Below are positions 7,561 to 30,534 of a stretch of 32,862 nucleotides of DNA, one piece after another. Source of the DNA: Okeania hirsuta (lineage in GTDB: Bacteria > Cyanobacteriota > Cyanobacteriia > Cyanobacteriales > Microcoleaceae); the NCBI RefSeq assembly GCF_003838195.1, contig NZ_RCBY01000070.1, forward strand, positions 1 through 32,862, read 5' to 3'. The translations under genes were made by a program, and so were the position numbers. The notes under the pieces are model-generated. The model had not been told where the DNA came from. It was given only the letters and a program-made list of their open reading frames with translations, and ran no database searches. Every line of letters starts with the position of its first letter. Position 1 is the stretch's first letter.

Positions 7561-7660
7561 TATTAGACATCTCCAGAAAAGAGAGAATAAGGAATAGGGA
7601 GAAGTAATTGATAACTTACGGATAAGAATTGATTTTATTTTTTTTTGGAGAAGTCTATGA
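7561..7660. mobile_element. MITE, TATTAGACATCTCC family, copy 1
   Basis: TATTAGACATCTCC on the left (7561-7574) faces GGAGAAGTCTATGA on the right (to 7660); about 16 of the outer 20 bases pair. The inside has a purine-rich tract (7575-7604) and the shared core AATTGATAA-TTA-GGATAAG (about 7607-7628), also found at 18554 and partly at 15519. Confidence 0.65.
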
Positions 7661-7903
7661 TGTCCGCGCTCTTTGCTTTGACTGCTATAAGCTTTTAATA
7701 TGTCCGTGCATTTCCTTCAATTGCTATAAAATCAAAACATTATTTTGTACAGCTTCACATCAAATTGGTATCAGGAATTTTGGCGTTGGTGAATCAAGCG
7801 ATGAAACCTAAATTTAGCGAAATATAAAATGCTTTTCAGTTAATAGTTAGACAATTGCCATTAAAGCACAATCATAGCCACGTATTACCAACGCTTGATT
7901 TTT

Positions 7904-9931
7904 TTAGTTAGCTAATTCCCCTAAAGGTACTTGTATTAAATCATAGATAGTGGTGCTTCTTAATCTCTCCAGTTCCTGAATCCACTCTGATTCAGAATAG
8001 AATTTTTCTTGATACTTTTTAGCCAATTCAAAGTCTGTCGATAAATCAGTTTTTTGCCACATACTTAAAACGGTGCTACGACGTTTTCTACACATAATTA
8101 ATTCAATAGTTGCTATTGTAGAACGGATTTCTAAAGGCGCTCTAAGAAGATTTTTCTTTGCCTTTTCATCTAAATGAAAAAGATGCTCTACTTCTGATAG
8201 TTTATCTGGAGCATCTAAACAACTATCTTGCAATTTTGAAATTAAATCATCTGAGTCAGTAATTTGATATTCAGACATATTTTCTACATCAATAATTTGT
8301 TTCCACAAAAATCGATTGTGAGACAAACTAAACTGTAAATCTCTAGCCTCCATTGCATCTTTCACATCTTGACGATATTTCGGACAATGTAAATAAATAC
8401 GCAGTAATAAATATTCTGCTTCTTCTAATAAACCACGCTCTCGAGGTGGAGATAAAACTTTTTGTGAAGTATTATTTTTCCCTTTAGTAGAATTTCTACT
8501 ATTTTGTCGATAATATTTTAACTGTTTTGCTACTAGCAATGGTACTGATAACAACTCATCCTCGCCTAAGAGCTTTTTCCAATGAGTAACAACTTGGTTC
8601 AACAAATTTTCAGTAAGTAATGAAACTCTACGAGAATCTCCTTGACTCAAAATATCTGCACAATATTGAAGATAATAAGTAAGCTGATTATCGTTAGTTA
8701 TTTTCGTTAAAATTTTAATTATTTGTTGAGTTGCTTGACCATACTCATCTGCCAAACTCAAATTTTTATTTGCTGCAATATTTTGAATTTGCCAGTCAAT
8801 CCATAGTGGAGAATTAACTAATAATTCCTGATACCTTTCAGAAGAATAATTTTGCAAATATTCATCAGCATCTTTCCCATCAGGAATATTCAATATTCGT
8901 AGTTGAACTTCCCCTTTATAAGCAAGATTTTCTATTTCTACAATTGCCCGGTTAGTAGCTTGAATACCTGCTCGGTCAGCATCAAAATTTAAGATAATTT
9001 GTTTAGACTCTGTATAACGTAAAAGTTGTTTAATTTGAATAGAACTTAATGCCGTACCTAGAGAAGCAACAACATTATTAATTCCCGCAGCATGGAGAGC
9101 AATTGCATCAAAATATCCTTCCACAACCACAGCTTTATCCAGTTTTGAAATAGCAGTTTTTGCCTTATCCAAACAAAATAAAGTTTTACCCTTATCAAAT
9201 AATTCAGTTTCAGGAGAATTCAAATATTTAGGTTGTTCATCACTCAAAGTTCTCCCACCAAAACCAATAACTCTACCTTGCGCATCATTAATAGGAATCA
9301 TCAAGCGATCGCGAAATCTATCGTAATAACTATTACCTGATTTTCTAGGTAAAATTAATCCTGCTTTCTCCACTAACTCTACAGGAAAACCTTTTTGTTC
9401 CACCAAATAACCATAAATAGTTTCCCAACCATTAGGAGCATAACCCAGTTGAAATTTTTGAATAGTTTCTTCTGTAATTTGACGTGAAAATTTTAAGTAC
9501 TCTAAAGCAATTTTTCCCTGTGATTGTCTCAAAGCGTGTTGATAAAAACTATTAGCCATTGCCAAGATTTCATAAAGTTGTTCCCGCAGAGAAATTTGAC
9601 GTTGAAACTCTTGTCTATTTTCTGGTGATTCCGTTTTAATTTGTATTTGATAACGTCTGGCTAAATCTAACACTACATCACTAAAAGAAGACTTACCAAC
9701 TTCCATCAGAAATTTCAAAGCATTACCACCTGCACCACAGCCAAAACAGTAGTACATTTGTTTGCTGGTACTAACAGTAAAGCTAGGAGTTTTTTCTTCA
9801 TGGAAAGGGCATAATCCTACATAATCTTTACCTCGCTTTTTTAAGACAATATGCTCTGAGATAACATCATAAATGTCAGCTCTTTCCTTCACTTCTGTAA
9901 TAGTATCTTGATGAAAACGAAAATTATTCAT
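7904..9931 (-). CDS. dnaG: DNA primase
   Basis: DnaG makes the RNA primers for DNA replication and works with the replicative helicase DnaB. The 675-residue protein has the full domain order: CHC2 zinc-binding domain (residues about 1-100; C41-P-F-H44 and C62-F-G-C65), the catalytic core with the RNA-polymerase basic region (about 120-260, including RFRDRLMIP and FGGRTL), and the TOPRIM fold with E271 in VVVEGYFDAIALH and D317/D319 in LNFDADRAG. The C-terminal part (about 450-675) is the divergent DnaB-binding region typical of cyanobacterial primases. Start ATG at 9931 agrees with homologues (HQDTITEV). It stands alone, divergent from the DUF502 gene across 855 bp. Confidence 0.96.
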   Translation of the reverse strand: MNNFRFHQDTITEVKERADIYDVISEHIVLKKRGKDYVGLCPFHEEKTPSFTVSTSKQMYYCFGCGAGGNALKFLMEVGKSSFSDVVLDLARRYQIQIKTESPENRQEFQRQISLREQLYEILAMANSFYQHALRQSQGKIALEYLKFSRQITEETIQKFQLGYAPNGWETIYGYLVEQKGFPVELVEKAGLILPRKSGNSYYDRFRDRLMIPINDAQGRVIGFGGRTLSDEQPKYLNSPETELFDKGKTLFCLDKAKTAISKLDKAVVVEGYFDAIALHAAGINNVVASLGTALSSIQIKQLLRYTESKQIILNFDADRAGIQATNRAIVEIENLAYKGEVQLRILNIPDGKDADEYLQNYSSERYQELLVNSPLWIDWQIQNIAANKNLSLADEYGQATQQIIKILTKITNDNQLTYYLQYCADILSQGDSRRVSLLTENLLNQVVTHWKKLLGEDELLSVPLLVAKQLKYYRQNSRNSTKGKNNTSQKVLSPPRERGLLEEAEYLLLRIYLHCPKYRQDVKDAMEARDLQFSLSHNRFLWKQIIDVENMSEYQITDSDDLISKLQDSCLDAPDKLSEVEHLFHLDEKAKKNLLRAPLEIRSTIATIELIMCRKRRSTVLSMWQKTDLSTDFELAKKYQEKFYSESEWIQELERLRSTTIYDLIQVPLGELAN

Positions 9932-10786
9932 AAATTCATTAAATAATTGATTGTCAATGATTTTGAGGATTTTTTATCTGTAACCTGTTTGGCATTTACA
10001 CTCTGATAATGCCATTGCCTTTTCTATTCTTAAAATACTCTTCTATGAAGTCATAAAATTCTCATCCATAATTCTGATTTTATCTAGTTGAAAGATATAT
10101 AGCCATCCTAGATAGAAGATAAATATTAGCTACAGAGCAAGATAAGTAACTCTCTGTATTTAGATAACTAAAATTTGTTCAAAACCTATTATATGACAAC
10201 TATAGTATTTCCATTTTAGACGTAAACATAGATGATGATTTTTGACTACAAAAAATTTTATCTATCAATCATCTTCCCCTATCCTTTGTTCTCTCTTAAA
10301 TGTAAATTCTATATATCTTTCATATATATCTCAGTTCTATTCTGCCTAGCAAAAATTTACAACTTAAATAGAACTACTGGAAAGAAGACCTTTTGCAAAA
10401 GTCAATATTAAATCTTTTTTCCTTTCGTCCTTTTACCTTCTATTGCTCCTGCTCCCTGTCACTTATGTGGCGAAGTCTACAGTTGAGAAAAAGAGACAAA
10501 TTGTTTTACCATATAAATCTATCCAATATCATCTGGAAATCAGCCACGGCTCTCAGTCCAATCTCAGTCCAATTATTATTGTGGACAAGTGGTAGAAAAT
10601 ATATCTGAATATTTTGGATGATTAAAATCAGTTCAATTTTGATTTGAATTTACATTTGCAACAATTATTGACAGTTGTTAATAATTGTAAGTATTCAGAA
10701 TAAAAAATATAAATATTAAATTAAAAAAAATTGGTTTCAAGCTAGATCAAAAAATATCTAGCAATTTACGAGGAAATGGGTAAACA
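9932..10786. other. Long AT-rich region between divergent dnaG and DUF502 genes
   Basis: No gene or RNA is recognised. Noted structures are the direct repeat CTCAGTCCAAT (twice within 10552-10573) and a perfect 7-bp hairpin GCTAGAT/ATCTAGC at 10741-10762, 24 bp before the DUF502 start, which would lie in that gene's leader RNA. Confidence 0.4.
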
Positions 10787-11506
10787 GTGTTCAAACGCAT
10801 AAGGCAGGATTTAAAAAACGACCTAATTGCAGGCTTACTGGTAGTCATACCATTAGCTACAACAATTTGGTTGACCATAACTATTGCTCGGTGGGTAATA
10901 GATTTTTTGACAAAGATACCCAAGCAAATCAACCCCTTCGATGGTTTACACCCAGCTTTAGTGGGCCTACTAAATTTCTTAGTAGGACTAGCAGTACCAT
11001 TGCTAAGTATTCTAGTGATTGGGTTAATGGCTAGAAACATTGCTGGAAGATGGTTATTAGATGTAGGCGAGCGAATACTACAAGCTATTCCATTTGCAGG
11101 GTCAGTCTACGGCACTCTCAAACAAATCTTAGAAACTCTACTCAAGGATTCTAACGAAAAATTTCGCCGTGTGGTACTTGTAGAATATCCACGTCAGGGA
11201 GTTTGGACTATAGCTTTTGTCACTGGTACGATTAGTAGTCAAATTAAATCTCATCTAGGAGACTCAATGCTAAGTCTTTTCATTCCAACGACTCCTAACC
11301 CTACATCTGGTTGGTATGCCATAGTGCCAGAAAAAGATGTGCTTAACGTTTCAATGTCAGTGGAAGATGCGTTTAAAGTTCTCATATCAGGTGGAATAGT
11401 AACTCCAAATCAATCAGTACGTCCAGAAAAAAATTCAAATGATCAACTCAAACCTCTACTTTTAGATAGAGAAGACTATCAAAAATTTTCCACTGAAGAG
11501 GATTGA
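10787..11506 (+). CDS. DUF502 family membrane protein
   Basis: This 239-residue inner- or thylakoid-membrane protein belongs to the DUF502 family; its function is unknown. It has two long hydrophobic segments (about residues 12-42 and 58-85), followed by the family block RNIAGRWLLDVGERILQAIPFAGSVYGTLKQ and a soluble C-terminal domain with VVLVEYPRQGVW and TPNPTSGWYAIVPEKDV. The start is GTG at 10787 (MFKRIRQDLKNDLIAG), preceded by AGGA at a long 12-bp spacing; no in-frame ATG fits. nusB follows 245 bp downstream on the same strand, the usual neighbour in cyanobacteria, but the gap is filled with repeats here. Confidence 0.88.
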   Translation: MFKRIRQDLKNDLIAGLLVVIPLATTIWLTITIARWVIDFLTKIPKQINPFDGLHPALVGLLNFLVGLAVPLLSILVIGLMARNIAGRWLLDVGERILQAIPFAGSVYGTLKQILETLLKDSNEKFRRVVLVEYPRQGVWTIAFVTGTISSQIKSHLGDSMLSLFIPTTPNPTSGWYAIVPEKDVLNVSMSVEDAFKVLISGGIVTPNQSVRPEKNSNDQLKPLLLDREDYQKFSTEED

Positions 11507-11538
11507 ACGAGTTATATTGAAAAAGGCAGAAAGCAGAA

Positions 11539-11613
11539 GCGGTGCGACCCCGCGTCGGCGTCAGACGCAAGGGAATGCTGACCAAGATAGGGAATGGGCA
11601 CCAATAGAGGCAA
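11539..11613. repeat. GCGGTGCGACC repeat, copy 1
   Basis: GC-rich text starting GCGGTGCGACCCCGCG and running to CACCAATAGAGGCA matches 25365-25438 with few differences. It is preceded directly by a purine heptamer tract (GGCAGAAAGCAGAA). Its CCCGCGTCGGCG...AGACGCAAGGGAA part also closely matches tnpB codons near 4569-4600. Confidence 0.7.
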
Positions 11614-11625
11614 AAGGTAGAAGGT

Positions 11626-11722
11626 TTAATTGCATGGGGATAGTCAATGACTGGCCACTCTGTGTCTGATAACCCCGAACAATTTTCAGTACCCCTGTTG
11701 ACGATGGGATATTAAACCTGCC
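11626..11722. repeat. ATTAAACC(C/T)GCC repeat, copy 1
   Basis: ATTTTCAGTACCCCTGTTGA followed by GATGGGATATTAAACCTGCC is related to 17384-17482 and, inverted, to 26120-26190. All three carry a hairpin in which runs of C and G pair (best seen at 26130-26152). Each is next to heptamer repeats. Confidence 0.6.
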
Positions 11723-11751
11723 ACTTAAAAGATAAAAGATGATCAAAAATT

Positions 11752-12375
11752 ATGAACAAAGCTCCTCGCTCCACAGCTCGTGAACTAGCTCTGCTTGGTC
11801 TAAGTCAATTACCAACAAATTCAGGCAGTCTAGAAAAAAAGCAACTTCAAGAAGTCATACTAGCAGCAGTTAGGACTCTCAGAGCTGAAGTCCAAGATAT
11901 TTTAGAAACTGCTGCGGCAGAATTACAGAGAGGGAGCGATCGCCTCCTTAATAGTCAAATTAGTGCTAGTGATGTTCAAAGTGCAAGTTCGATGGTCCAC
12001 GAAGCAGTGGAGTTAGGCCAAACAGCAATTAATCGTATTGGCACTGCTGTGGAGTTACCAGAACTAATTCAACTAACTAATCAATTAGAAGTTCGCAAGT
12101 ACGCTTTAGAAATTTTGACAAAGGTGAATGACAATAAAGAAGAAATTGATAATTTATTGAGAGAATCAATAGTAGATTGGCAAATAGAACGTTTGCCTAG
12201 AATAGATATAGATATTCTCAGAATTGCAGTGACAGAAATGATGTTTATTGGCATTCAAGAACAAGTGGCAATTAATGAAGCTGTAAAATTAGCCAAGCGT
12301 TACAGTAGTGAAGATGGATATAGATTTATTAATGGGGTATTGCGAAGAGTGCTACATAAAATTAATTTAGCTTGA
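11752..12375 (+). CDS. nusB: Transcription antitermination factor NusB
   Basis: NusB binds boxA RNA with NusE (S10) and promotes antitermination, chiefly of rRNA transcription. The 207-residue protein starts ARELALLGLSQLP, as in the family. It has a long middle helical insert (about residues 25-100) usual in cyanobacterial NusB. The C-terminal half holds the conserved core: RKYALEILTKV, VDWQIERLPRIDIDILRIAVTEM (about 145-168), VAINEAVKLAKRYSSEDGYRFINGVL (about 176-201). ATG at 11752 is the natural start. ftsY, often next in cyanobacteria, does not follow; mobile-element scars begin about 50 bp downstream. Confidence 0.95.
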   Translation: MNKAPRSTARELALLGLSQLPTNSGSLEKKQLQEVILAAVRTLRAEVQDILETAAAELQRGSDRLLNSQISASDVQSASSMVHEAVELGQTAINRIGTAVELPELIQLTNQLEVRKYALEILTKVNDNKEEIDNLLRESIVDWQIERLPRIDIDILRIAVTEMMFIGIQEQVAINEAVKLAKRYSSEDGYRFINGVLRRVLHKINLA

Positions 12376-12423
12376 AGAGTTATAAGTCTAAAGTAAAAAT
12401 CAAAATTAAGGTCTTTGTTGTGA

Positions 12424-12508
12424 ATAGAAGTAACTAATGTAGACCATCTAGGTTTGGTAGCAGGAATTATTGACGAGATTGGCATAGAACAGAAAATTAA
12501 TCGACTAC
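12424..12508 (+). pseudogene. 5' fragment of the IS1634-type transposase
   Basis: These 85 bp are identical to positions 563-479 (minus strand) and encode IEVTNVDHLGLVAGIIDE plus GIEQKINRL in frame. The start codon has been lost (GTGA precedes) and the similarity ends abruptly after CGACTAC. What remains is a dead fragment. Confidence 0.85.
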
Positions 12509-12618
12509 TTAGATTAAGAATCAGAAACTTGAGGTAAAAACAGGTAGAGGGCCAAAATAATCAACGATTGAATCATAGTGTAGAATTAACCACTTGGCAA
12601 TGATTAAGATGCGATCAA

Positions 12619-12767
12619 ACTCCGTTCCGCTTCGCGTTGGCGGAGCCTAGCGGCAGCTATATCGCGAAGCGTGATAGAGAAACTTTGGCAATTTTTGGAG
12701 ATGTCTATTGGTAAGTTCCGGCAACTGATGATTTGCGTTGGCGGAGCCTAGCGGCAGCTATATCGCT
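12619..12767. repeat. Pair of GC-rich palindromic repeats
   Basis: TTGGCGGAGCCTAGCGGCAG occurs twice (in 12637-12664 and 12738-12765), each followed by CTATATCGC. The first copy is flanked by CTTCGCG and CGCGAAG, forming a long inverted repeat. Such palindromes are common, dispersed elements in cyanobacterial genomes. Confidence 0.65.
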
Positions 12768-12785
12768 TCTTAAACCATACTATCA

Positions 12786-12849
12786 GTCTAAATACTTACT
12801 CAACTTTTACCATCTTTGTATACTACATTTTGTCGTGCGGAATGTGGGT
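12786..12849. repeat. Terminal sequence of the IS1634-type element, copy 2
   Basis: Nearly identical to 775-838 and in the same orientation, although the two transposase fragments lie in opposite orientations. It may mark the right end of an internally deleted copy beginning near 12424. Confidence 0.55.
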
Positions 12850-13317
12850 TGAAAATTATCAACATTTTTATTTTATGAGGCTCCTGAAAAAAAATCGCGC
12901 GTCAAAGGATTTTCGGTTGCATCCTCACAAAAATTGTGATATGTATATACAATGAGTTATTCTGTTTGCCTATACGCATGACTTTTTATTCAACTAAAAA
13001 AATGTATAGTCAGCGTGATAGAACTCAGTGTAAAAGATAGCAAATGGTTTCTATATAATTAGTGTATTGTCATTATTTTTGTTACCTACAGCAGTGGGAG
13101 GAATATGCCCCTGTTCCAGGAGTCCCTTGTTCTTGTATACCATTAAGCGAGGAAGACTACCCATTCTTCTACCTTTTTCCACTATTGTCTAACTGAATAT
13201 CCTGACTTCTGACTCAGTAATCTTGACTCCTGCAGATAAAAACATATACCACGAGCAAAGATACCATAAAGGTTTTGTAATCAATAACATATTTGTAATG
13301 ATTATTGGTAGGCAAAA

Positions 13318-13797
13318 TTACAACTCATGGAAATCGTAAATTACAATTCCTGTCTCCGGATGGTTATCCACACTAACATAACCAGTTTTAAGCATTTCCT
13401 TGAGAGCTTCTTCTACTTCTAGAAAGCTAGCTCCTGTTGCCATGACACCCTGACTAACAGATAACTTTCCTCCTTTAGTAGAAGCTGACCTGAGTAAAGC
13501 TACCATTAACTGTTGACGGGTTTGTGGAGGAGAAGCTTTCATAGAGACCGCCCCATTTGATTGATATAGTGGTACTCCTTGGGATGAAATACCTAATTTT
13601 GCTTTGACTTTAGTATTGTGTTCTTCTACCATATTGGGAATTAACAACAAATCAATAAATTGGCCTATTCCAAATAAACCCCCAGTAAAGAGCCAAAGTA
13701 GACCAGTCAAAATTTTGCCATTGTATAAACGATGGCATCCGTTAAGACCTAGGACGCAAGCCCCCCAAAATAGGTAACTGTATCTTATACTATTCAT
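13318..13797 (-). CDS. TM2-domain membrane protein
   Basis: The 159-residue protein has an N-terminal TM2 domain (residues about 5-52): two hydrophobic segments around GCHRLYNGKILTGLLWLFTGGLFGIGQFIDL, with the usual G-x-HR-Y-GK and (T/G)GG-x-GIG-x-IDL pattern. A linker follows, then a C-terminal part (about 92-159) that looks like a small winged-helix (LLRSASTKGGKLSVSQGVMATGASFLEVEEALKEMLKTGYV). It may read out a ligand or partner in the cytosol; function is unknown. ATG at 13797 is directly before SIRYSYLFWG. It stands alone, divergent from acsF. Confidence 0.85.
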   Translation of the reverse strand: MNSIRYSYLFWGACVLGLNGCHRLYNGKILTGLLWLFTGGLFGIGQFIDLLLIPNMVEEHNTKVKAKLGISSQGVPLYQSNGAVSMKASPPQTRQQLMVALLRSASTKGGKLSVSQGVMATGASFLEVEEALKEMLKTGYVSVDNHPETGIVIYDFHEL

Positions 13798-14114
13798 TTA
13801 GTCCCAAAAATTATTTTTCTGAAATTAATATACTGTTTTGCCTAGTTACTTAATTTTCGTTATGGGCACTTAGTATTATTACCATCTTAGTCCAAGAATA
13901 TAATGTGGAAAACATTAATAACTCTAAATATACTGAGAAGTAGGATAATAATGGGCTATTTCTTATAGGTATAGATACTTTGCAATTCTTAACAAAAACT
14001 ATGTACTTCAGTCCCCTAGACCTTGGTAAACTATATAGCGTGGAAAATATAATACTTTCTTGCTCATTCTCCAAACCAGGCATAGATTGATAAATTAAGA
14101 AAACAACAAAACTT
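13798..14114. promoter_or_regulatory. Intergenic region upstream of acsF
   Basis: It must carry the promoters of the TM2 gene and acsF. TATAAT at 14048-14053 with TTGGTA at 14023-14028 (19-bp spacing) is a possible acsF promoter. The motif GTGGAAAA followed by an AT-rich box occurs twice, near 13903 and 14040, about 137 bp apart, and could be a repeated operator. No experimental support is visible in sequence. Confidence 0.35.
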
Positions 14115-15191: not shown

Positions 15192-15219
15192 AGAAGTTTT
15201 TAATAATTAACCTCGCTTG

Positions 15220-15253: not shown

Positions 15254-15265
15254 TTTGTTTTATTT

Positions 15266-15482
15266 AGGGTTTGCTGAAAAAGTCTTATGGTGATGATAGG
15301 CAACAGATCATCTGGCAACAGGCAACAGTTTAGACTATCTGCTACGGCCAAATTTTCGGCATTTCAGCGGAAAAGTATTAGCATTTTGAGACTACAACAG
15401 CCAAAAACCTTGCACTTTTTCATAAATATTTAACCCTGGAAGCCTTTACAGGTATTAATTACAATTTTATTCAGCAAACCCT
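15266..15482. mobile_element. MITE, AGGGTTTGCTGA family, copy 1
   Basis: Terminal inverted repeats AGGGTTTGCTGAA and TTCAGCAAACCCT bound 217 bp. The 4-bp sequence ATTT lies directly outside both ends (15262-15265 and 15483-15486), a target-site duplication. It is homologous, in inverted orientation, to 30346-30534. Inside is a heptamer tract, GGCAACA type, near 15300-15328. No coding capacity. Confidence 0.85.
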
Positions 15483-15486
15483 ATTT

Positions 15487-15577
15487 AAGAAAAGAGGGAG
15501 TAGGGAGTAGGGGGGAAATAATTGATAATTTATGTACTATGATTGGCTGTATTTTGGATGATTGGAGATGTCTAATA
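15487..15577. mobile_element. MITE, TATTAGACATCTCC family, truncated copy
   Basis: The right end GGAGATGTCTAATA (15564-15577) and the core AATAATTGATAATTTATG (about 15518-15535) are present; the left end is missing where it abuts the preceding MITE. The tract before the core is GGGAGTA repeats. Confidence 0.55.
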
Positions 15578-15715: not shown

Positions 15716-17317
15716 TCAATTCAAAGACTCTAAAAAAGTCTGAACTTGACCATCTGGTCTCAAAACCAATCGAATTTTAGCAGTCTTATCGCCCTCAATA
15801 TTAGAGACAAAAACTTGGTCTTCTAAAGGCATCTTTGTATTACCATAAAACTCAACAGATGCTAGACCAATTGGAGTTACCTTTTTCACCGAACCATCAC
15901 CGTTTAATAACAAACTATACTGCAAATTCCTATCTAAATCTGATGGCGGTTCCCAACTTTTTTCAAAATATTCTCTTACCTCTGCAACTTGGGGAATTCG
16001 ATCGAATAATGTAGATTTCGGTTTCCTGCCAGCATTTTCACTAGGTTCAACCACAGATTCGCGATCGCGTAAAGCAACTGGTTCTACATCTTCCAAGGTC
16101 GGTAAATCAATTGCTCTAGGAACATTGACCGGAATACGACTCACATCTACATAAGGTCTTACCCCACCTCCTCTATTAAGTGCTGGTGGTAGAGGTCGGT
16201 TTGGTGCAGGTGGAATTTGTAAATTTGGGGGCGGTTGTACAGGAGGTCTTGGTTGTACTGACACCCCATAGTTAGGTATTGCTGGTGGAGGAACTGGTGG
16301 CGGTGTCGTTGGTGGTGCAACAGGAACTGGTGGCAGTATTGTTGGTTGTGCGGGAATAACTACTGTTGTAGCATTTCCCTGATTTTGAGGAGGACGAGAA
16401 AAATCATTCAGAGGTGGTGGCAAGTTATTCGGAGCGGGTGACGCTGGGTTTTGTCTAGGAAATAGAGGAGATGGTGTAGGAATTGGAGATGGTCTAGTAA
16501 TAGTTGGTGTTGGTAGATTTGTTGGTGGTGTTGGTAATGGTGATAGAGTTACTGTTGGTGTTGGTGTTGGTAAATTTGTTGGTGGTGTTGGAATTGGTGA
16601 ACTATTGCTTGGTGGAGAAGCAATAATATTAGGCTCATTTTGTGGTTTGCGACTAATTGCGTAGCGGTCATATAATTTAATGGCGCTAACTGTTAGACCA
16701 GCGCTGATGATAATTAGTACCGCACTCCGCAACCATTCAGGAAGAGGTGTAACTTCACTGTCAGACTTAAACTGAGGTAATGTCTGTATATCTGCTTCAC
16801 ATTCATCTAGAGCAATCGCCAGGTCAAATAGTTGCAACATACTCATGGTAATAAAACTTCCTGACTCTTTAGTCGCTAGAGACCCCAAAAATAGATCGTG
16901 GTTTAATAAGTCTCGTGGTTGTAGATAAATAGTTTGACCGTTTATTGGAGGTGGGGAATTAGGTATCGAAAGTTTGGCATCAGCAACTTCGGTGATCTCT
17001 TCCTGAATTTTTGTTTGTGAGTTTGACTCTGTTGCAGTGCTATTGTTTTCTTCTCCTTTATTATTTTCATTGTCTAGAGGTAATTCAGGAGATTTACTAA
17101 GAAATTCTTGTACATAAGTGGTAACAACTTTGTGGAGAGCGTCTAATTCACTGCGGCCACCCCTCAGTGTAATATGTTCTGTTTCTGATACCCTGGGATC
17201 ATCAAAACTAAGGCTAAAGCGTTGTTTTCTGGAAATACCGATCCATTTTAAGACCGCTAAACCTCTAGCTGTAAATTTTAGCGTACAAGTTGGGGGAGTA
17301 TAACTTCGTGAAGGCAT
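15716..17317 (-). CDS. DUF4335 family protein with one membrane segment
   Basis: The 533-residue protein belongs to DUF4335, a cyanobacterial family of unknown function. The N-terminal domain begins MPSRSYTPPTCTLKFTARG and contains FSLSFDDPRVSETEHITLRG (about residues 34-53) and YLQPRDLLNHDLFLG (about 131-145). A single transmembrane helix follows at about 194-215 (WLRSAVLIIISAGLTVSAIKLY). Then comes a very proline-rich linker (about 235-395; repeated PTPPTNLPTPT) and a conserved C-terminal segment (about 430-533). Topology suggests an N-terminal cytosolic part and a long linker crossing the periplasm or lumen. The DUF3038 gene lies upstream on the same strand; the two families are commonly adjacent, but are 517 bp apart here because of inserted repeats. 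Confidence 0.85.
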   Translation of the reverse strand: MPSRSYTPPTCTLKFTARGLAVLKWIGISRKQRFSLSFDDPRVSETEHITLRGGRSELDALHKVVTTYVQEFLSKSPELPLDNENNKGEENNSTATESNSQTKIQEEITEVADAKLSIPNSPPPINGQTIYLQPRDLLNHDLFLGSLATKESGSFITMSMLQLFDLAIALDECEADIQTLPQFKSDSEVTPLPEWLRSAVLIIISAGLTVSAIKLYDRYAISRKPQNEPNIIASPPSNSSPIPTPPTNLPTPTPTVTLSPLPTPPTNLPTPTITRPSPIPTPSPLFPRQNPASPAPNNLPPPLNDFSRPPQNQGNATTVVIPAQPTILPPVPVAPPTTPPPVPPPAIPNYGVSVQPRPPVQPPPNLQIPPAPNRPLPPALNRGGGVRPYVDVSRIPVNVPRAIDLPTLEDVEPVALRDRESVVEPSENAGRKPKSTLFDRIPQVAEVREYFEKSWEPPSDLDRNLQYSLLLNGDGSVKKVTPIGLASVEFYGNTKMPLEDQVFVSNIEGDKTAKIRLVLRPDGQVQTFLESLN

Positions 17318-17333
17318 TTGAAAACATTTGATT

Positions 17334-17382
17334 GAAGAAGGAAGAAGGAAGAAGGAAGAAGGCAGAAGGCAGAAGGCAGAGG
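17334..17382. repeat. Heptamer tandem repeat (GAAGAAG to GCAGAAG)
   Basis: About seven 7-bp units in a row. The unit sequence switches once within the array by a single A-to-C change that is then repeated in the following units. Confidence 0.9.
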
Positions 17383-17383
17383 G

Positions 17384-18509: not shown

Positions 18510-18614
18510 TATTAGACATCTCCTCCAAAAGAGGCAACAGGCAACAGGGAAAAATAATTGATAATTTATGGATAAGAATTGATTTGATTTTTGATTTTCA
18601 CGCCTATGTCTATT
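18510..18614. mobile_element. MITE, TATTAGACATCTCC family, copy 3
   Basis: Left end TATTAGACATCTCC (18510-18523), then a GGCAACA heptamer tract (18533-18549), then the core AATTGATAATTTATGGATAA, and a decayed right end (ATGTCTATTTA near 18606). Same layout as 7561-7660, but with a different heptamer. Confidence 0.6.
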
Positions 18615-18655
18615 TACCAATATTTTTTTTGAAAAATAATTGTTTGATTTCTGAA

Positions 18656-23376: not shown

Positions 23377-23387
23377 ATATTACTAGA

Positions 23388-23606
23388 ATGTCAAGTCAAA
23401 TTACGCTCAAAGTTAACGGAGAAACCCATACTTGTTTACCTCATATACTTTTACCTAATTTTCTGGAACAGTTGGGGTTAAACCCTCGGTTAGTAGCTGT
23501 GGAATATAATGGTGAAATTTTACATAGACAATTTTGGGACAAAACTGAAATACAAGCAGGGGACAAGTTGGAAATAGTTACTATTGTGGGGGGTGGTGTT
23601 GATTGA
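23388..23606 (+). CDS. thiS: Sulfur carrier protein ThiS, with extra residues after the Gly-Gly
   Basis: ThiS carries sulfur as a C-terminal thiocarboxylate for building the thiazole part of thiamin; ThiF adenylates the terminal glycine and ThiG uses the product. The 72-residue protein has the ubiquitin-like fold pattern: ITLKVNGE start, LPNFLEQLGLNPRLVAVEYNGEIL in the middle, IQAGDKLEIVTIVGGG at the end. The usual free Gly-Gly terminus is followed here by Val-Asp before the TGA. These two residues would have to be removed, or the carrier would not work as in other bacteria. It lies 11 bp after thiE and is surely cotranscribed. Confidence 0.92.
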   Translation: MSSQITLKVNGETHTCLPHILLPNFLEQLGLNPRLVAVEYNGEILHRQFWDKTEIQAGDKLEIVTIVGGGVD

Positions 23607-24260
23607 AGTCAGAAGTTAGAAGTTAGAAGTGAGATTTGATAGGCTAAAAACGGGGATTTATATTTATATATGGTTATAGGTAGTGGTGTACAAGTAGTGA
23701 TTTTTGTAGTTTTGTTTCTGGCAGTGAAAGGGATTTAATTATAAATATCACTAGATCTACAGGACTACCTGATTATAGTAACTAAAAACTATAGTGCTAT
23801 ATATTTTAAGACTTAGACAAATATACTTGACTAAAAAATAAAGAAAATTCAGTATTTCAAGCCTCCTACCTACTTTAGTAGGAGGTACTGTTAACTGATA
23901 ACTGAAATAACCTAGTGCAGGATGGCGGAAATAACTGACCAGTTACAAAATCGCGCGAACAATTACAAATCAAAAATGATTGACTGTCAGATGTGCGTCT
24001 TACATTCTGGAGGGGCTGTGTGCGGAATTACTTCCGCACTTTATACACCCCGTAGGAGACGCCAATTAGCACTCGCTTTTAAATGCATGACTTCCGCGTA
24101 GCCGCACTAGACTGTAACCTCGACTACATAATTTTTGATTTTTGATATTTTGTGATTCAAGTACGGATATCCCAATAATTAAACACCAAGCTTTGATTGC
24201 AAAGTCTAGAAAGAAAGCTATACATTAAAGAAAGAAGTATAGAAATAATAACAATTATTT
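23607..24260. other. Intergenic region with two strong hairpins
   Basis: A short heptamer tract (AGAAGTT units, about 23610-23630). Hairpin 1: CCTCCTAC/GTAGGAGG (23862-23885), 8 bp. Hairpin 2: GTGCGGAA/TTCCGCAC (24020-24039), 8 bp with a 4-base loop, inside an outer GGGG/CCCC pairing (24012-24051). Neither has a T-run. No gene was found. Confidence 0.5.
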
Positions 24261-25205
24261 ATGAATAAAAAATTGCTTTCACAGATCGTAAAATCTGTCT
24301 TTGTCATCGGACTAGTGTTTACTTTAGTCTTCAGTCAAGCTGATGCAGCTTTAGCCGCTCGGAGTGGAGGTCGCATTGGCGGTGGGTCATTTAGAATGCC
24401 CAGTCGCACCTATACATCACCTACCCGTAGTCCTGGAGGTGGTTACTATCCTGGGGGTGGTATTGGCTTTCCATTTTTACTACCTTTCTTTGGTTTCGGT
24501 GGGTTTGGCAGTCTGTTTACAATTTTGATTTTTATTGCGATCGCTAATTTCTTAGTTAGTAGTTTCCGAAGAGCAACTCAGGGAGATGAGTTTGACAGCT
24601 ATAGTAATAATCCTACAGTTTCTGTTGCTAGCGTACAAGTTGGTTTATTGGCAGAAGGTCGTAGTTTACAAACAGACCTTGATAGAATAGCGGAAAATGC
24701 TGATACTGGTTCTGCTGCGGGTAGAGCGCAAGTTCTCCAAGAAGCTACATTATCTTTATTGCGTCACCCTGAATATTGGGCTTATGGATCTGCCCAAAGT
24801 GAACAAGCAAAGCTAGACTCGGCAGAAGCAAAGTTTAATCAGTATGCTCTGACTGAACGCAGTAAGTTTTCTGAGGAGACTCTTTCTAATTACAATAATC
24901 AATTAATTGATAAAAACCTTCAAACTTCTCTACCTGTTAGTGAAACTGATGGCGAACTGGTAACTCAGGAAACTGAAGCACCAGGGGAATATATTGTGGT
25001 TACTATTGTTGTTGGTACTCAAGGTAAATTACAGTTGCCAGTTATTAATAGTACAGAAGATGTAAGACGTGCTTTAAGTCAAATGGGTACTATTTCTAGC
25101 GAGCAGTTATTAGCTGTTGAAGTTTTATGGACACCTCAAGCGAGTGGCGATACTTTGACTTCTGAGGATATGGTTGCTGAGTATCCAAATCTTAAATTGG
25201 TTTAA
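24261..25205 (+). CDS. DUF1517 family membrane protein
   Basis: The 314-residue protein has an N-terminal signal sequence (about residues 8-33, ending ADAALAA), a Gly/Arg/Ser-rich stretch (RSGGRIGGGSFRMPSR...), a Gly/Phe-rich hydrophobic segment that probably spans the membrane (about 68-102), and a soluble C-terminal domain (about 118-314) with SVASVQVGLLAEGRSLQTDLDRIA, LRHPEYWAYGSAQSEQ and VVTIVVGTQGKLQLP. This is the DUF1517 layout found across cyanobacteria and chloroplasts. A plant relative has been linked to acclimation to fluctuating light (FLAP1); I recall that link and cannot verify it. It stands alone, followed at once by heptamer repeats. Confidence 0.87.
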   Translation: MNKKLLSQIVKSVFVIGLVFTLVFSQADAALAARSGGRIGGGSFRMPSRTYTSPTRSPGGGYYPGGGIGFPFLLPFFGFGGFGSLFTILIFIAIANFLVSSFRRATQGDEFDSYSNNPTVSVASVQVGLLAEGRSLQTDLDRIAENADTGSAAGRAQVLQEATLSLLRHPEYWAYGSAQSEQAKLDSAEAKFNQYALTERSKFSEETLSNYNNQLIDKNLQTSLPVSETDGELVTQETEAPGEYIVVTIVVGTQGKLQLPVINSTEDVRRALSQMGTISSEQLLAVEVLWTPQASGDTLTSEDMVAEYPNLKLV

Positions 25206-25334
25206 TCAAAAGAAGGAAGAAGGAAGGAGGAAGAAGGAAGAACCGAAGTTGTGATTTTTTGGTCAGGGTATAGCAAGTGGGAGTATCTTGCTCCGGTTGT
25301 GAGTATTGCTTGTCTCCATTTATAGCGCTGTGCA

Positions 25335-25365
25335 CAGGCAACAGGCAACAGGCAACAGGCAACAG
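25335..25365. repeat. Heptamer tandem repeat (GGCAACA)
   Basis: Four perfect 7-bp GGCAACA units, directly joined to the GCGGTGCGACC repeat. Confidence 0.92.
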
Positions 25366-25438
25366 CGGTGCGACCCCGCGACGACGCCAGTCGCAAGGGA
25401 ATGCTGACCAAGAGAGGGAATGCGCACCAAGAGAGGCA
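25365..25438. repeat. GCGGTGCGACC repeat, copy 2
   Basis: Close copy of 11539-11613, including CGCAAGGGAATGCTGACCAA and GCACCAA-AGAGGCA. Both copies are preceded by heptamer repeats, but of different unit sequence. Confidence 0.75.
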
Positions 25439-26119
25439 ACAGGGGGAATAAATTGCCGATAATATAAGACTTTTAGCTATTTGGCCCCTGCTGCAATTTG
25501 TAAATATACCAGCGCTCATTGCTATACCATTACGCCTGCAGGACTACCAATTACTGTACTGTTTGTTAAACTGTAATATTCTCCATTCTTAATTTCTGTA
25601 AGGGTGGGGAATATTTATTTTTGATTTTTGATATATTACTGATTTCCTGGAAGATTGATGAATTTGCAGTAATATCATGTCCGGTTGAATACTTATAAAT
25701 AAACGATGGAGGATTCAGGAGTCAGGAGGGAAGAAAGAAGAGTAGGAAAAAGAGAAAGTTTTTTGATCACTAACTATCCAGACATGATGTAATACCATTT
25801 CTCAAAAAAAATGTTACGAATAAATAAGTGCGATTAAAATATTTTATAGGAGATGTTCCTTTGACAAAAAAAGAGAATTTATGACCTAAAACCTGGTATT
25901 GAAGCCATTAATTCTGGGTCCTGTACGTCGCCAATCCGACGGCTCCCCTACCGAATAAAGAGGCTAGTCATTTGTAGCAAACATTTATCAAATTGGTATA
26001 AGATTATTCCGGAATTTATCAATATTTGATTGTAACTTAACAATAGTAGCATAGCCAGGATATATTAGGTAAAATTTATTGCCTAATATATAATGTGAAT
26101 AGTTATTATCATTTTCTTT

Positions 26120-26190
26120 GTGGGTTTAATACCCCACCGTCAACGGGGGTGTTCAAAATTACTTGGGGGAGCGAATCCCCATGTAATTTT
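26120..26190. repeat. ATTAAACC(C/T)GCC repeat, copy 3 (inverted)
   Basis: The minus strand has the same order as the other two copies. CACCCCCGTTGACGGTGGGG contains a stable hairpin, and ATTACATGGGGATTCGCTCC followed by CCCAAGTAAT forms a second inverted repeat. A GGAGACA-type heptamer tract follows at 26193-26226. Confidence 0.65.
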
Positions 26191-26366
26191 CCTCCTGTCT
26201 CCTGCCTCCTGTCTCCTGTCTCCTTCTTCAAATTAATCCATATATTTCACAAATTAACTATCAGTTATCTCAGGGTCGCATCTGGTAAAAAATATCCTCA
26301 AACTTAAAATTTGAATCAATAAGTTTGAGGTAGTTATAACTCGTACACAGATGCAATAAAGAATTA

Positions 26367-27239
26367 GTGATGAAGAACTGCAACCAAGCAATTAATTCCA
26401 GAGAATACAAATTAATTCTCAATATTAATCAATTTTATGACCGTACTCATACTGTAGAAAGATTTGGCAATTTAGTTGAGTCATTGACACAACAGTTTAA
26501 AGGAAAAGTTATTAGCCAACAAACTGAAGAAAAATATAGACAAATTTATTACTTAGATACACCAAATTTTGATTTACGTCATCATGGTTTTATCTTGAGA
26601 ATTAGACGAGAAAAAAAATATCATCAACCAGAATATCAGGTGAATCTCAAACATCGTGAGTCAGACCGCTATTTATCAGCTTCACAGGATTTGTCGGCAA
26701 CAAAAGCAGGTAAGACTAAGTTTGAAGAAGATATAATTCCGCCATTTCAAAGTAAATTTTCTCAGTCAATATCTGTAACTAGAGATCGGCAACCTAACTT
26801 TGAAAATATTAAACAAGTTGCGAAATTATTTCCTGGTTTAAAAGCTCTTGATATTCCCGAACAAACTTCAATTGAGTTAGTTAATAATTTTCATGCTTTT
26901 GAAGTGGTAAGGAAACTAGCAAATTTACAATTTGGAGACAAACATATTGTGAAAACCGATCTAAGTTTCTGGTATTTAAATACAACAGATAATTTACCGT
27001 TAATTGCAGAATTTTCACTTAAATATCGTCTACCTAAAAAATTGTTAGAATCTCCAAAAAAATTAGAACAATTTCCTATGCCAATGATTCAAGGAACAAA
27101 TTATTTGTTTAAAGCTTTGCAACAACAATGGGAATGGATAAATTTTCACCCTATGACTAAAACTGCTTATGTTTATGGCCAAGGAAATCAATCTCAAAAT
27201 ATGTTTTTGGCAGAAAAAAAATCTCTTTTGGCTGCTTAA
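26367..27239 (+). CDS. CYTH-like (triphosphate tunnel) domain protein
   Basis: The 290-residue protein looks like a member of the CYTH/triphosphate-tunnel superfamily, whose members hydrolyse or polymerise phosphates inside a beta-barrel. Support: a first strand with E-x-K (EYKLILNINQF, about residues 13-23), RQIYYLDTPNFDLRHHGFILRIRRE (about 58-82, matching the YYDTPD-LR-GF-LR-RR signature), YQVNLKHRESDR (about 90-101, basic strand), FEEDI (about 119-123) and LIAEFSLKYRL (about 212-222). The classic first-strand ExExK is only partly kept (E-Y-K-L-I), so catalysis may differ. The ATG at 26367 is followed by another Met; AGTGATG gives little ribosome binding signal. It stands alone; the substrate is unknown. 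Confidence 0.72.
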   Translation: MMKNCNQAINSREYKLILNINQFYDRTHTVERFGNLVESLTQQFKGKVISQQTEEKYRQIYYLDTPNFDLRHHGFILRIRREKKYHQPEYQVNLKHRESDRYLSASQDLSATKAGKTKFEEDIIPPFQSKFSQSISVTRDRQPNFENIKQVAKLFPGLKALDIPEQTSIELVNNFHAFEVVRKLANLQFGDKHIVKTDLSFWYLNTTDNLPLIAEFSLKYRLPKKLLESPKKLEQFPMPMIQGTNYLFKALQQQWEWINFHPMTKTAYVYGQGNQSQNMFLAEKKSLLAA

Positions 27240-27566
27240 TTTAGTAGGGTGCTGTTAGCGACAGGGTAACTGAGCAAAACTCAACGGTGCTTCATTAATT
27301 GATAATGGATAATGGATAATTGATAATTACCTCTGGTTAAAACCGTTCTTGATTGAATATAAGGAGATATTATTTCTTCTCTTGGTTGATTGGATATGGC
27401 GAGGAGACCTCGCCATCCCTCAACCGCTTTTTTCCCCTTAAAAGGGGAGGCTTTAAACCTGAATTATTTAATTATTAATTATTAATAATTAGGTAATACT
27501 ATACTCCACTTCGTTCCGCTCACATACCCTACTACTAATAAAGAGGTAATATAAAGTAGTGAATTT
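27240..27566. other. Intergenic region, possible TAGTAGGGT element
   Basis: TAGTAGGGT at 27242-27250 and ACCCTACTA at 27526-27534 are inverted repeats 293 bp apart overall. Between them lie GATAATG/GATAATT heptamers (27300-27327) and AT-rich text. It may be a MITE related to 6652-6754. Confidence 0.4.
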
Positions 27567-28565
27567 TTATTGATATTGTTCCCAAGTTTCATCCTTTAAT
27601 TTTTCGGCTAAATCTGTAACATCATTCACACTACCAATATAAAAGTATCTTTTACTGCTTTGCATACCCCCAGGAGTAGTCTTGCGAAAATTAGTCGGAT
27701 GTAAATCAGCTAATAAAAATACTCTTGCTGGATACCATGAATTATCAATATAGCTACGACGGTTTCTAGCAATTTCAACTAATTCTTCATCCGATTTATC
27801 AACGTTTTTCCACTTAATAGAATACTCATCTTCTGACTCAATATCCACAACTGCTTCAATCTTAGCTACCCGGTCTACTTGTTTATTTCTATAGACTCCA
27901 AAGTACAAACTGCGACGATGACTATACTGACCACCTTTTGCTGTACAAACATATATATTATGGTTAATAACATCATCATAAGTTCCAGCACAATTCACAA
28001 CATCTAGACGATATTTCCAAGAAGGTAACAAATTTTCTTCATCAAAATACTCTTCTAAGTCGGCGATCGCATCGGCTAGACTTTTTGATAAACCTTCCAC
28101 TTTTATTGACTCTAGAAAATATTCAAAACTAATAGGTAAAAATAAAATTTTATCTGCTTCAGCAATCTTTTTAACATTGGAAAAAGCCGGATCATTAGGT
28201 TCATCTTGTTCATAGTTAGCAAGAGCAATAAGAACTTTTGCCCCTTGCTTTTGCTTGAGGCTTTCTAGATGACGTAATAATTGTCCTTCATCAAAATTAT
28301 TTCCCCTTTTAGTTTCAATAAAAATAGAGAAAGGTTCTTGAGTAATTTCTCCATCAGGAGTGCTTTGTTTTCTTCTTACTTGTTGAGTGAATTTGACTCC
28401 AACTTTTCCAGATAAACCTTCACCTAATAGTTTACTCAAAACTTCCGATAAAAATTTAGGATTTTCTTCATAGAGCATTTTGAGAATCAGGAGACAATGG
28501 TTTGTAGTCTGATTTTCTCTTTGAGAATAGGAGGGAAAGAGGCGAATATTTCGGCTCATTTTCAA
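27567..28565 (-). CDS. PD-(D/E)XK nuclease-like protein
   Basis: The 332-residue protein has a PD-(D/E)XK core: P70-D71 in QSTPDGEITQE, then E84-T-K86 in FSIFIETKRG, followed by a conserved-looking Q95 and H99 in GQLLRHLESL. It is soluble, with no signal peptide. Strand-like ALLIALANYE and ILFLPISFEYFLESI follow, consistent with the rest of the fold. The C-terminal half (about 180-332) is not recognised. Such proteins can be restriction, repair or defence nucleases; no methylase or helicase gene is adjacent, so no system can be named. ATG at 28565 or the second Met two codons later (28559) could be the start. Its stop is 328 bp from the end of the convergent CYTH-like gene, and it is divergent from the FAD hydroxylase. 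Confidence 0.68.
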   Translation of the reverse strand: MKMSRNIRLFPSYSQRENQTTNHCLLILKMLYEENPKFLSEVLSKLLGEGLSGKVGVKFTQQVRRKQSTPDGEITQEPFSIFIETKRGNNFDEGQLLRHLESLKQKQGAKVLIALANYEQDEPNDPAFSNVKKIAEADKILFLPISFEYFLESIKVEGLSKSLADAIADLEEYFDEENLLPSWKYRLDVVNCAGTYDDVINHNIYVCTAKGGQYSHRRSLYFGVYRNKQVDRVAKIEAVVDIESEDEYSIKWKNVDKSDEELVEIARNRRSYIDNSWYPARVFLLADLHPTNFRKTTPGGMQSSKRYFYIGSVNDVTDLAEKLKDETWEQYQ

Positions 28566-28737
28566 TCAATATTTTGACGAATTCCTAATAGTTTAGCACT
28601 ATAGCACTTTAATTCTGTCTCCTGACTCCTTCTTCAAATTCTCTCTTCAGTCACAAATCACTCAGATTTTTCCGAAAAGTTGCGCCACAATATAGGGAGA
28701 GTATAAATTACTAGACACTTGATTATTTTTGATAAAT

Positions 28738-30054
28738 ATGGTAATGGAGCAACTTTCACAAAATTATCTATCTGAAACAACTGTCAAACCAAAATTAGAT
28801 TACGATTTAGTTATTGTCGGTGGGGGTATCGCTGGTACCGCTCTTGCTTGTGCTTTGAAAAATTCTGGCTTAAAAGTGGCATTAATTGAAAGTCAACCTA
28901 AATCTGTAGTTGCAGCTAGAAAACTTGCTTATAATCTTTCCTTAACGTCTGGCAGAATATTAGATGGCATCGGAGTTTGGCAACAAATTTTGCCTAAAAT
29001 CACTACATATCGGCAAATTAGTCTTTCTGATGGTAATTATCCCCGTACTGTCCAATTTTATCCTGATGATTTGGCTATTACTGGTAAGAGACCAACTTCA
29101 AAGGAGGGATTGGGTTATGTGGGAGAACATCAGGTGATGCTGACGGCAATGCAGGAATTTTTGGCAGACTGCGAACAACTTACTTGGTTATGTCCAGCGG
29201 AGGTTTTGCGGGTAGATTATAAATCGGATTTTGTGGAAGTTGAGCTAAAGCAGAAGGATACGGACAGTTTGTCTGGTGAAAATGAAAGTTTGACTGTCCG
29301 TTCTCGGTTGGTGGTAGGAGCAGATGGGGCGAGGTCTCCTATTCGTGAAGCTGCTAATATTGGGACTCATGGTTGGAAGTATTGGCAGTCTTGTGTGGCA
29401 ATGACGATTAAAACTGAAAGGTCTCACAATGATATTGCTTTTGAGAGATTTTGGCCGAGTGGCCCGATGGGGGTTTTGCCGTTGCCGGGAAATCGCTGTC
29501 AGGTGGTTTGGACTGCTCCTCATGCTGAGGCGAAGGCGTTGCAAGAGTTGGATAAACAGGAATTTTTGGCTAAGTTGGAGTATCGCACTGCTGGAAAGTT
29601 GGGTAAGTTGGAGTTGTTGAGCGATCGCTACGTTTTTCCGGTACAGTTGATGCAGAGCGATCGCTATGTTCAACACCGTTTAGTTTTAATTGGGGATGCT
29701 GCTCATTGTTGTCATCCTGTGGGTGGTCAAGGTTTGAATATGGGTATTCGGGATGTAGGGGCGATCGCTGAGGTGATTAAGTTTGCTGATCAGCAAGGTG
29801 AGGATATTGGAGATATTCGGGTATTGAAGCGTTATGAAAGTTGGCGCAGAAAGGAGAATTTCGTAATTTTAGGGGTTACTGATTTTCTGGATAGAATGTT
29901 TTCTGCTAGTGTGTTGCCTATAGTAGCGGTTCGTCGTTTAGGTTTGTGGGGTATGGGAATAGTTCCGATTTTTAAGTCTTTGTCTTTGCGAGTGATGACT
30001 GGTTTATTTGGTCGTCATCCAGAATTAGCTCATACTGTTTCACAGAAGTTATAA
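28738..30054 (+). CDS. UbiH/Coq6-family FAD-dependent hydroxylase
   Basis: The 438-residue protein is a flavin monooxygenase of the UbiH/Coq6 type. It has the FAD-binding GGGIAG motif near residues 28-33 (YDLVIVGGGIAGTALACAL), the DG motif in VVGADGARSPIREAA (about 193-207) and the second FAD motif in LVLIGDAAHCCHPVGGQGLNMGIRD (about 318-342). In cyanobacteria members of this family are thought to hydroxylate the ring of the plastoquinone precursor; the exact substrate here is inference. A TTG nine bases upstream is in frame, but ATG at 28738 (or 28744) is preferred; no clear Shine-Dalgarno. A heptamer array starts just after the stop. Confidence 0.87.
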   Translation: MVMEQLSQNYLSETTVKPKLDYDLVIVGGGIAGTALACALKNSGLKVALIESQPKSVVAARKLAYNLSLTSGRILDGIGVWQQILPKITTYRQISLSDGNYPRTVQFYPDDLAITGKRPTSKEGLGYVGEHQVMLTAMQEFLADCEQLTWLCPAEVLRVDYKSDFVEVELKQKDTDSLSGENESLTVRSRLVVGADGARSPIREAANIGTHGWKYWQSCVAMTIKTERSHNDIAFERFWPSGPMGVLPLPGNRCQVVWTAPHAEAKALQELDKQEFLAKLEYRTAGKLGKLELLSDRYVFPVQLMQSDRYVQHRLVLIGDAAHCCHPVGGQGLNMGIRDVGAIAEVIKFADQQGEDIGDIRVLKRYESWRRKENFVILGVTDFLDRMFSASVLPIVAVRRLGLWGMGIVPIFKSLSLRVMTGLFGRHPELAHTVSQKL

Positions 30055-30345
30055 CTTAGTAAGTCAAAAGTCAAAAGTCAAAAGTCAAAAGTAAGATTTT
30101 ATCGGCTCAAAACTAAGTTATAAGTCAAAAGTCAAAAGTAAGATTTTATCGACTCAAAACTTTGATACTACAGTAATTTATGGAAATCAAAAGTTATAAG
30201 TCAAAAGTCAAAAGTCAAAAGTAAGATTTTATCAGCTCAAAACTTTGATGCTACAGTAATTTACTGAAGTTATTTAACATTTAAAAGAGGGAAACTATTT
30301 GTGACATCTTTAAAGTGAATTGGTACCAGATTTTGTTTGTTAATT

Positions 30346-30534
30346 AGGGTTTGCTGATTAAATTTCAAATAATTACCAGATAAAGGTTTTAGCCTTTTTA
30401 GGTATTGAAAAAGTACATGGTTTTCAGCTCTTCATGCTCAAAAAGTTAGCATTTTTAGCAAGAGTTGGGCAAAAAAATTCTCCCCTACTCCCCTACTTCC
30501 CTACTCCTTAAAAAAGACTTTTTCAGCAAACCCT
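30346..30534. mobile_element. MITE, AGGGTTTGCTGA family, copy 2
   Basis: Terminal inverted repeats AGGGTTTGCTGA and TTCAGCAAACCCT bound 189 bp, flanked by AATT on both sides (30342-30345 and 30535-30538), a 4-bp target duplication. It aligns with the reverse complement of 15266-15482. At the homologous place it has a CCCTACT heptamer tract rather than GGCAACA. Confidence 0.87.

Follow-up and report, generated by a model that had tools for sequence, protein, structure and literature searches.

Tandem heptamers are widespread in some cyanobacteria, and we know of no agreed explanation for the fact that the heptamers differ between places. The question is raised by a stretch of Okeania hirsuta DNA (contig NZ_RCBY01000070.1, positions 1 to 32,862; hereafter called the window), which is part of a genome of 8.79 Mb in 716 contigs (G000) and in which separate copies of three repeat families are associated with different heptamers. 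The families are a miniature inverted-repeat transposable element (MITE) with AGGGTTTGCTGA ends, an element marked by TATTAGACATCTCC and a repeat marked by GCGGTGCGACC, referred to as AGGG, TATTAG and GCGG, respectively. According to the original prediction, all three possess an internal slot that is either a hot spot for the replacement of heptamer arrays or the target of a process rewriting one heptamer into another. The comparison with sister genomes suggests, as far as can be judged from sequences, that one-letter mutations spread along the arrays, while the GCGG repeat lands inside existing ones.

Genomes and repeat families

The window is congeneric with four metagenome-assembled genomes (MAGs), Okeania sp. 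SIO2C9 (G001), SIO2B3 (G002), SIO1I7 (G003) and SIO3B5 (G004), and its 15.7-17.4 kb stretch matches all four relatives at 92-95%. The comparisons rest on these MAG assemblies, the counts of copies and arrays refer to fetched stretches of the genomes (loci with L numbers), and several readings were made by eye. Distinct tandem arrays of at least 24 bp numbered 523 in 1.37 Mb of partly redundant DNA. In G000, exact matches to AGGGTTTGCTGA, TATTAGACATCTCC and GCGGTGCGACCCCGCG were found 236, 64 and 59 times, whereas the same patterns reversed, used as a control, gave 0 matches each. Because of these numbers and since the slot heptamers vary among the collected copies, the three repeat patterns are not a matter of chance. 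For AGGG, the first approximately 100 of the 236 matches were used, fetched in part.

The copies of TATTAG and AGGG in the window are as follows.

7561-7660, plus strand: TATTAG copy C, right end approximate, its GGGAATA-like units (about 7581-7606) decayed
15487-15577, minus strand: TATTAG copy A, one terminal repeat left (15564-15577), ortholog in SIO2C9, SIO2B3 and SIO1I7
15496-15509, plus strand: GGGAGTA array of copy A, two units
18511-18614, plus strand: TATTAG copy B, with a 3-bp target site duplication (TSD) ATT (18511 / 18612)
18533-18546, plus strand: GGCAACA array of copy B, two units
15266-15482, plus strand: MITE copy 1 (AGGG), ends AGGGTTTGCTGA and TCAGCAAACCCT, 4-bp TSD ATTT at 15262-15265 and 15483-15486
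15299-15327, plus strand: GGCAACA array of copy 1, composed of GGCAACA (15299-15305), an 8-bp insert GATCATCT (15306-15313) and two further GGCAACA units
30346-30534, minus strand: MITE copy 2 (AGGG), inverted relative to copy 1, 4-bp TSD AATT
30480-30507, minus strand: GGGGAGTA array of copy 2 (sequence given in the orientation of copy 1), homologous in position to 15299-15327

The array was located at one internal place in TATTAG as well as in AGGG, and the collected copies of both families carry different heptamers in this slot, as had been predicted; neither a single heptamer in all copies nor a freely varying slot was found. Some details had to be amended. The two GGCAACA units at 18533 and the two GGGAGTA units in the copy at 15491 were confirmed, but the latter copy is inverted, and the tract at 7591, described as GGAATAG/GGAGAAG-like, looks like a decayed GGGAATA array. 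The coordinates of both MITE copies and the GGCAACA units of copy 1 were correct. By contrast, the "CCCTACT units" of copy 2 were slightly off since this copy is inverted and its array has a period of 8 (unit CTCCCCTA) and not of 7 according to Tandem Repeats Finder. The period in this slot is 7 in sister copies; the stretch 30480-30507, with period 8, looks as though an extra G had been copied into every unit.

Heptamers and subfamilies

TATTAG possesses terminal inverted repeats, and one empty site was found, that of copy B, in SIO2B3 and SIO1I7. The left flank of copy C gave no match in the six relatives' loci tried. From 121 deduplicated places, 89 could be parsed, the rest having no clear border and some being plainly not elements. 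Twelve of the 89 were left out (seven with another heptamer, five mixed), and the remaining 77 copies, each having a single main heptamer (34 from G000, 27 from SIO1I7 and 16 from SIO2B3), carried GGGAGTA (31), GGCAACA (13), GGGAACA (12), GGCAGTA (11) or GGGAATA (10). These five can be arranged as a chain in which neighbours are one substitution apart, GGCAGTA-GGGAGTA-GGGAATA-GGGAACA-GGCAACA.

The heptamer is linked to the rest of the element. In 52 of the 77 copies, the nearest tail, i.e. the sequence outside the array, in the same genome belonged to a copy with the same heptamer (chance 0.24). The distance between tails right of the array was 0.131 for copies sharing a heptamer and 0.167 for copies with different ones, a difference reached in 0 of 2000 shuffles; within genomes the values were 0.133 and 0.168 (again 0/2000). 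Moreover, the tail distance rose with the number of steps between the heptamers, from 0.131 for none to 0.144, 0.175 and 0.195 for one, two and three steps (Mantel r 0.357, 0/2000). Nine of the 89 parsed arrays were mosaics of two heptamers, namely GGCAGTA/GGGAGTA (five), GGGAGTA/GGGAATA (two), GGGAATA/GGGAACA (one) and GGGAACA/GGCAACA (one). They cover all four links of the chain, and no other pair among the five heptamers occurred in these arrays. GGNANNA unit types sharing one array were one base apart in 35 of 45 pairs, compared to a proportion of 0.39 in random draws.

The AGGG family gave a similar picture. In the fetched loci, 71 copies (61 from G000) had both terminal inverted repeats, AGGGTTTGCTGA and TCAGCAAACCCT, with at most one mismatch, and a 4-bp direct repeat flanked all 21 full copies with exact ends, counted in redundant loci. 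The site of MITE copy 1 is empty in SIO2C9, SIO2B3 and SIO1I7 (TTTTATTTAAGAAAAG), that of copy 2 in SIO2B3 and SIO1I7. A period-7 unit was scored in 45 of the 71 copies: GGAGACA in 29, GGAGTCA in eight, GGGAGTA in two, GGCAGTA and GGCAACA in one each, and other sequences in four. The 26 copies without a scored unit include the octamer GGGGAGTA copies, owing to their period (seen by eye), and copy 1 of the window, which was scored in the wrong orientation. The linkage test was run with 55 copies, unlabelled copies and 11 copies without a found core being excluded and GGCAACA and GGCAGTA being absent; the unit label agreed with that of the nearest copy in 42 of the 55 (chance 0.47), and the distance test gave 0/2000 shuffles. 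By eye, copy 1 of the window and L213 form a GGCAACA subfamily, though two copies are too few for the test. Thus, the arrays can act as subfamily tags of mobile elements.

Unlike heptamers in related copies might also be explained by gene conversion, i.e. a non-reciprocal exchange by which an array is now and then overwritten with that of another copy of the family. Seven TATTAG pairs are close in their tails (distances of 0.034-0.052) but unlike in their heptamers, by two steps in two of the pairs, and there are arrays with a deviating inner unit, e.g. GGGAACA GGCAACA AGGAACA. However, the other five pairs are one step apart, as mutation would give, the nine mosaics unite one-step neighbours only, and most orthologs retain their heptamer. 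Among 17 TATTAG ortholog alignments, 14 contained heptamer units and 12 of these had kept the main heptamer, as judged by eye; the pair L242/L314, with one GGCAGTA unit, is a tie, and L319/L287 shows one differing unit beside an insert. The orthologs of copy A all keep GGGAGTA, with two units in the window, two in SIO2C9, two in SIO2B3 (GGGAGTA GGGATTA) and about nine in SIO1I7 (one of them GGAAGTA). Gene conversion, even if occasional, is an unlikely explanation of the differences.

Changes in orthologous slots

The set of orthologous slots makes it possible to count the steps of heptamer change. From 66 comparisons (51 distinct), 60 (45 distinct) had a scored array in both orthologs; a slot of the window region entered the count once for each pair of genomes. 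The same consensus heptamer was found in 50 of the 60 comparisons; it differed by one base in seven and by three or more in three, while randomly drawn pairs of arrays agreed in 202 of 2000 draws. Two of the three strongly differing cases (L346:17174 and G002w:17978) are scoring artefacts by eye, the array of a neighbouring insertion having been scored, but were kept in the 60. The segment lengths of the 60 orthologs differed by a multiple of 7 in 25 cases, not at all in 20, by another value up to 45 bp in nine and by more than 45 bp in six. Unit number varies between orthologs. Along 214 arrays, the unit type changed 381 times, compared to a mean of 468 after shuffling (standard deviation 9.7; lowest of 300 shuffles, 438), which means that like units cluster.

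These counts bear on the idea of the slot as a hot spot at which entire arrays are swapped for others. Such a hot spot would account for unlike heptamers in one slot within one family and for the orthologous slot L330:13161, which contains AAAAGTC units where L331 has TCAGTTA units between the same flanks. This case is real. Nevertheless, 50 of the 60 orthologs have kept their consensus, seven have changed by one base, and by our arithmetic about 30% of the 7-bp units are hit at least once by plain mutation at 5% divergence, so we see no excess that needs an explanation. As the orthologous slots mostly keep their consensus and the heptamer follows the subfamily, the hot spot of the original prediction is unsupported; it was rejected on the ortholog counts and is very unlikely. 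Heptamer turnover seems to be due to point mutation and unit duplication instead. An independent origin of the array in each copy, with a short GG-rich seed as the starting point, might be indicated by TATTAG copies with a single unit or none (L269, L279 and L289). It is just as improbable, since the one-step chain, the matching tail subfamilies and the mosaics on every link fit descent better.

How a heptamer changes can be seen at a single array of the window.

17334-17380, plus strand: orthologous array in which GGAAGAA and GGCAGAA units are mixed in graded proportions across five genomes, adjacent to the start of the open reading frame (ORF) 15716-17317

The flanks of this array are the same in the five genomes. 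SIO2B3 and SIO1I7 possess no GGCAGAA unit (GGAAGAA only), SIO3B5 has one at one end, and at that same end the window carries three, of the type GGCAGA(A/G), with GGCAGAG as the last. In SIO2C9, all full units are GGCAGAA-like (AGCAGAA, GGCGGAA, GGCAGAA, GGCAGAA) beside the shared left edge TGAAGAA. We read this series as one substitution spreading by unit duplication, with the direction of change as we infer it. The predicted rewriting of one heptamer into another is retained in this form only, as an ordinary substitution in one unit that is spread by duplication. A remoter relative (L385) has no array at this place.

Taken together, it is probable that the heptamers turn over by point mutation and unit duplication and are inherited by subfamilies, and that GCGG inserts into pre-existing arrays. 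AGGG and TATTAG are MITE-like elements whose interior includes a tandem array of heptamers. One unit may mutate, whereupon units would be duplicated or drop out, presumably by slippage or otherwise by unequal exchange, and the whole array could drift to a neighbouring heptamer one step away. When the element multiplies, probably with the aid of a transposase that was not seen here, its copies would inherit the heptamer of the source copy, so that subfamilies would come to differ in the slot.

Several observations weigh against this explanation. The linkage between heptamer and tail is incomplete, as the nearest tail had another heptamer in 25 of the 77 TATTAG copies, and the subfamily tests use distances alone and no trees. 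The seven close pairs with unlike heptamers, five of them one step and two of them two steps apart, belong here as well, and a one-step account fails for L330:13161 and L331. SIO3B5 (L127) contains, near the place of copy B, a distinct TATTAG copy with a mosaic array of one GGGAGTA and four GGCAGTA units, which we read as a separate insertion. Unit differences of one base make up 267 of 307 pairs, a count biased by the array detection, which favours one-base neighbours. The ortholog of the gene beside the 17334 array is preceded, 50-79 bp upstream, by an AATTATT array in another remoter relative (L384), with flanks too diverged to be aligned. Finally, an autonomous parent of the AGGG or TATTAG MITE was not recognised in the fetched loci, the whole genome not having been scanned. 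Paired AGGG ends 0.7-2.2 kb apart in these loci enclose ORFs which, judged without a family search, were read as host genes.

The GCGG repeat

The third family is associated with heptamers in a different manner. Its two copies in the window have the following context.

11525-11538, plus strand: GGCAGAA AGCAGAA, forming the left half of an array split by an insert
11539-11608, plus strand: GCGGTGCGACC repeat inserted in this array; SIO3B5 has seven GGCAGAA units without the insert
11609-11622, plus strand: GGCAAAA GGTAGAA, forming the right half of this array
25321-25526, plus strand: third MITE-like element, TATAGCGCTGTGC ... GCGCTCATTGCTATA, carrying a GGCAACA array; absent from this place in SIO2C9, SIO2B3 and SIO1I7
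25337-25364, plus strand: four GGCAACA units left of the GCGG insert, part of the array of the third element
25365-25434, plus strand: GCGGTGCGACC repeat, located within the GGCAACA array of this third element and flanked by the same heptamer on either side
25435-25441, plus strand: one GGCAACA unit right of the GCGG insert

The GGCAGAA-type units before 11539 and the GGCAACA units before 25365 had been predicted correctly, but related heptamers occur on both sides of the repeat, which had been left unmentioned. At site 11539, SIO3B5 has seven uninterrupted GGCAGAA units and no GCGGTGCGACC insert, and this is an empty site. At this one site the nesting is reversed, the array being the landing site of GCGGTGCGACC, which provides one case of a small repeat that landed in a pre-existing array. 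SIO2B3 and SIO1I7 have other sequence between the same flanks, and the right flank of SIO2C9 matched insufficiently. An element of the type found at 25321-25526 was also located, by eye, in slot A of SIO2B3.

The left and right 7-mers of GCGG were within one mismatch of each other in 24 of 45 copies, compared to a proportion of 0.10 for ends taken from different copies. The choice of the right end did not inflate this number, as each copy offered at most one candidate. When situated in an array, GCGGTGCGACC would have no slot of its own but would have been inserted between existing units, its left end following ...A and its right end preceding GG..., and the flanking heptamer would therefore be that of the site. 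By eye, 22 of the 24 matched copies are in this one register of seven. On the other hand, 21 of the 45 copies are not situated between like 7-mers, two of the 24 matched copies are flanked by TCAAAAA and not by GG heptamers, and the empty site is a single one. Furthermore, the 45 copies were selected from 60, the other 15, among them the copy of the window at 11539, having no right end by pattern. These points weigh against the above explanation as well.

The units beside the repeat are GGCAACA, GGGAACA, GGCAGAA, GGCAGGA, GGAAGAA, GGGAAGA, GGGAGTA, GGGAATA and GGGAGCA. It is conceivable, albeit doubtful, that what GCGGTGCGACC recognises is the heptamer array itself, irrespective of its letters, through the period and the GG boundary. 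A mobile element reading these features instead of a sequence would be unusual. Copies carried inside one MITE are, however, not independent of each other, seven copies have one unit per side, and 21 of the 45 lie elsewhere. A GCGG-like stretch (4550-4588) is located inside ORF 4368-5744, which by eye resembles an IS200/IS605-type TnpB.

Comparison with known repeats

For Nostoc punctiforme, Elhai et al. reportedly described in 2008 (Genome Res 18:1484) small dispersed repeats (SDRs) residing in tandem heptamers and minitransposons. GCGG is like these SDRs in being a small repeat embedded in tandem heptamers (24 of 45 copies; one empty site) and in minitransposons. What separates it from them is its length, 51 bp in the commonest form and up to 154 bp, whereas SDRs are said to measure 21-27 nt. 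The comparison of Okeania orthologs also shows how heptamers change and provides an empty site. SDRs are mentioned in a further publication as well (PMC3116915).

Tandem heptanucleotides of the short tandemly repeated repetitive (STRR) type are treated for Calothrix and Nostoc (PMC4692102). The Okeania arrays, consisting of tandem 7-bp units at many loci with variable copy number, are like them in period and variable length; unlike STRR as presented there, many Okeania arrays reside inside MITE-like elements (PMC4692102). In the P6b region of the trnL intron of lichen Nostoc, heptamer classes were inferred to replace one another (PMC4476775). As in Okeania, different heptamers occupy one homologous slot across lineages, but the authors infer a replacement of the whole region within a structured intron RNA, while the Okeania slots are mostly unchanged or one base off. 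BrickBuilt of Porphyromonas gingivalis is likewise a MITE with an internal tandem array (PMC4596501). Its unit has 23 bp, whereas the Okeania case concerns several heptamer subfamilies of one element. A narrow search of the open-licence literature yielded no paper on Okeania tandem repeats, and one such search for cyanobacterial STRR heptanucleotides by name yielded none either.

Inserts in and beside the arrays

Besides entire units, other stretches vary in the arrays. The 8-bp sequence GCTCATCT, which is similar to GATCATCT, is polymorphic between the orthologs L041 and L300, in or beside the array, and so is a stretch starting with ACCCACCCC between the orthologs L060 and L320. An 8-bp insert (GATCATCT or GCTCATCT) is situated between GGCAACA units at several places, i.e. 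at 15306-15313 in the window, at about 1530 in L300 and in L090. In other copies, GCTCCGGAA occurs at the same phase as this insert. A 183-bp insert corresponding to place 28320 of the window is present in SIO2C9 and SIO2B3 and absent from the window, as well as from SIO1I7 compared to SIO2C9; both of its ends seem to be composed of heptamers such as TCAGCTA / TAGCTGA. At 30722-30861, a 69-bp unit containing CTTCTTC-type heptamers is present twice, and SIO1I7 has more copies of a similar unit.

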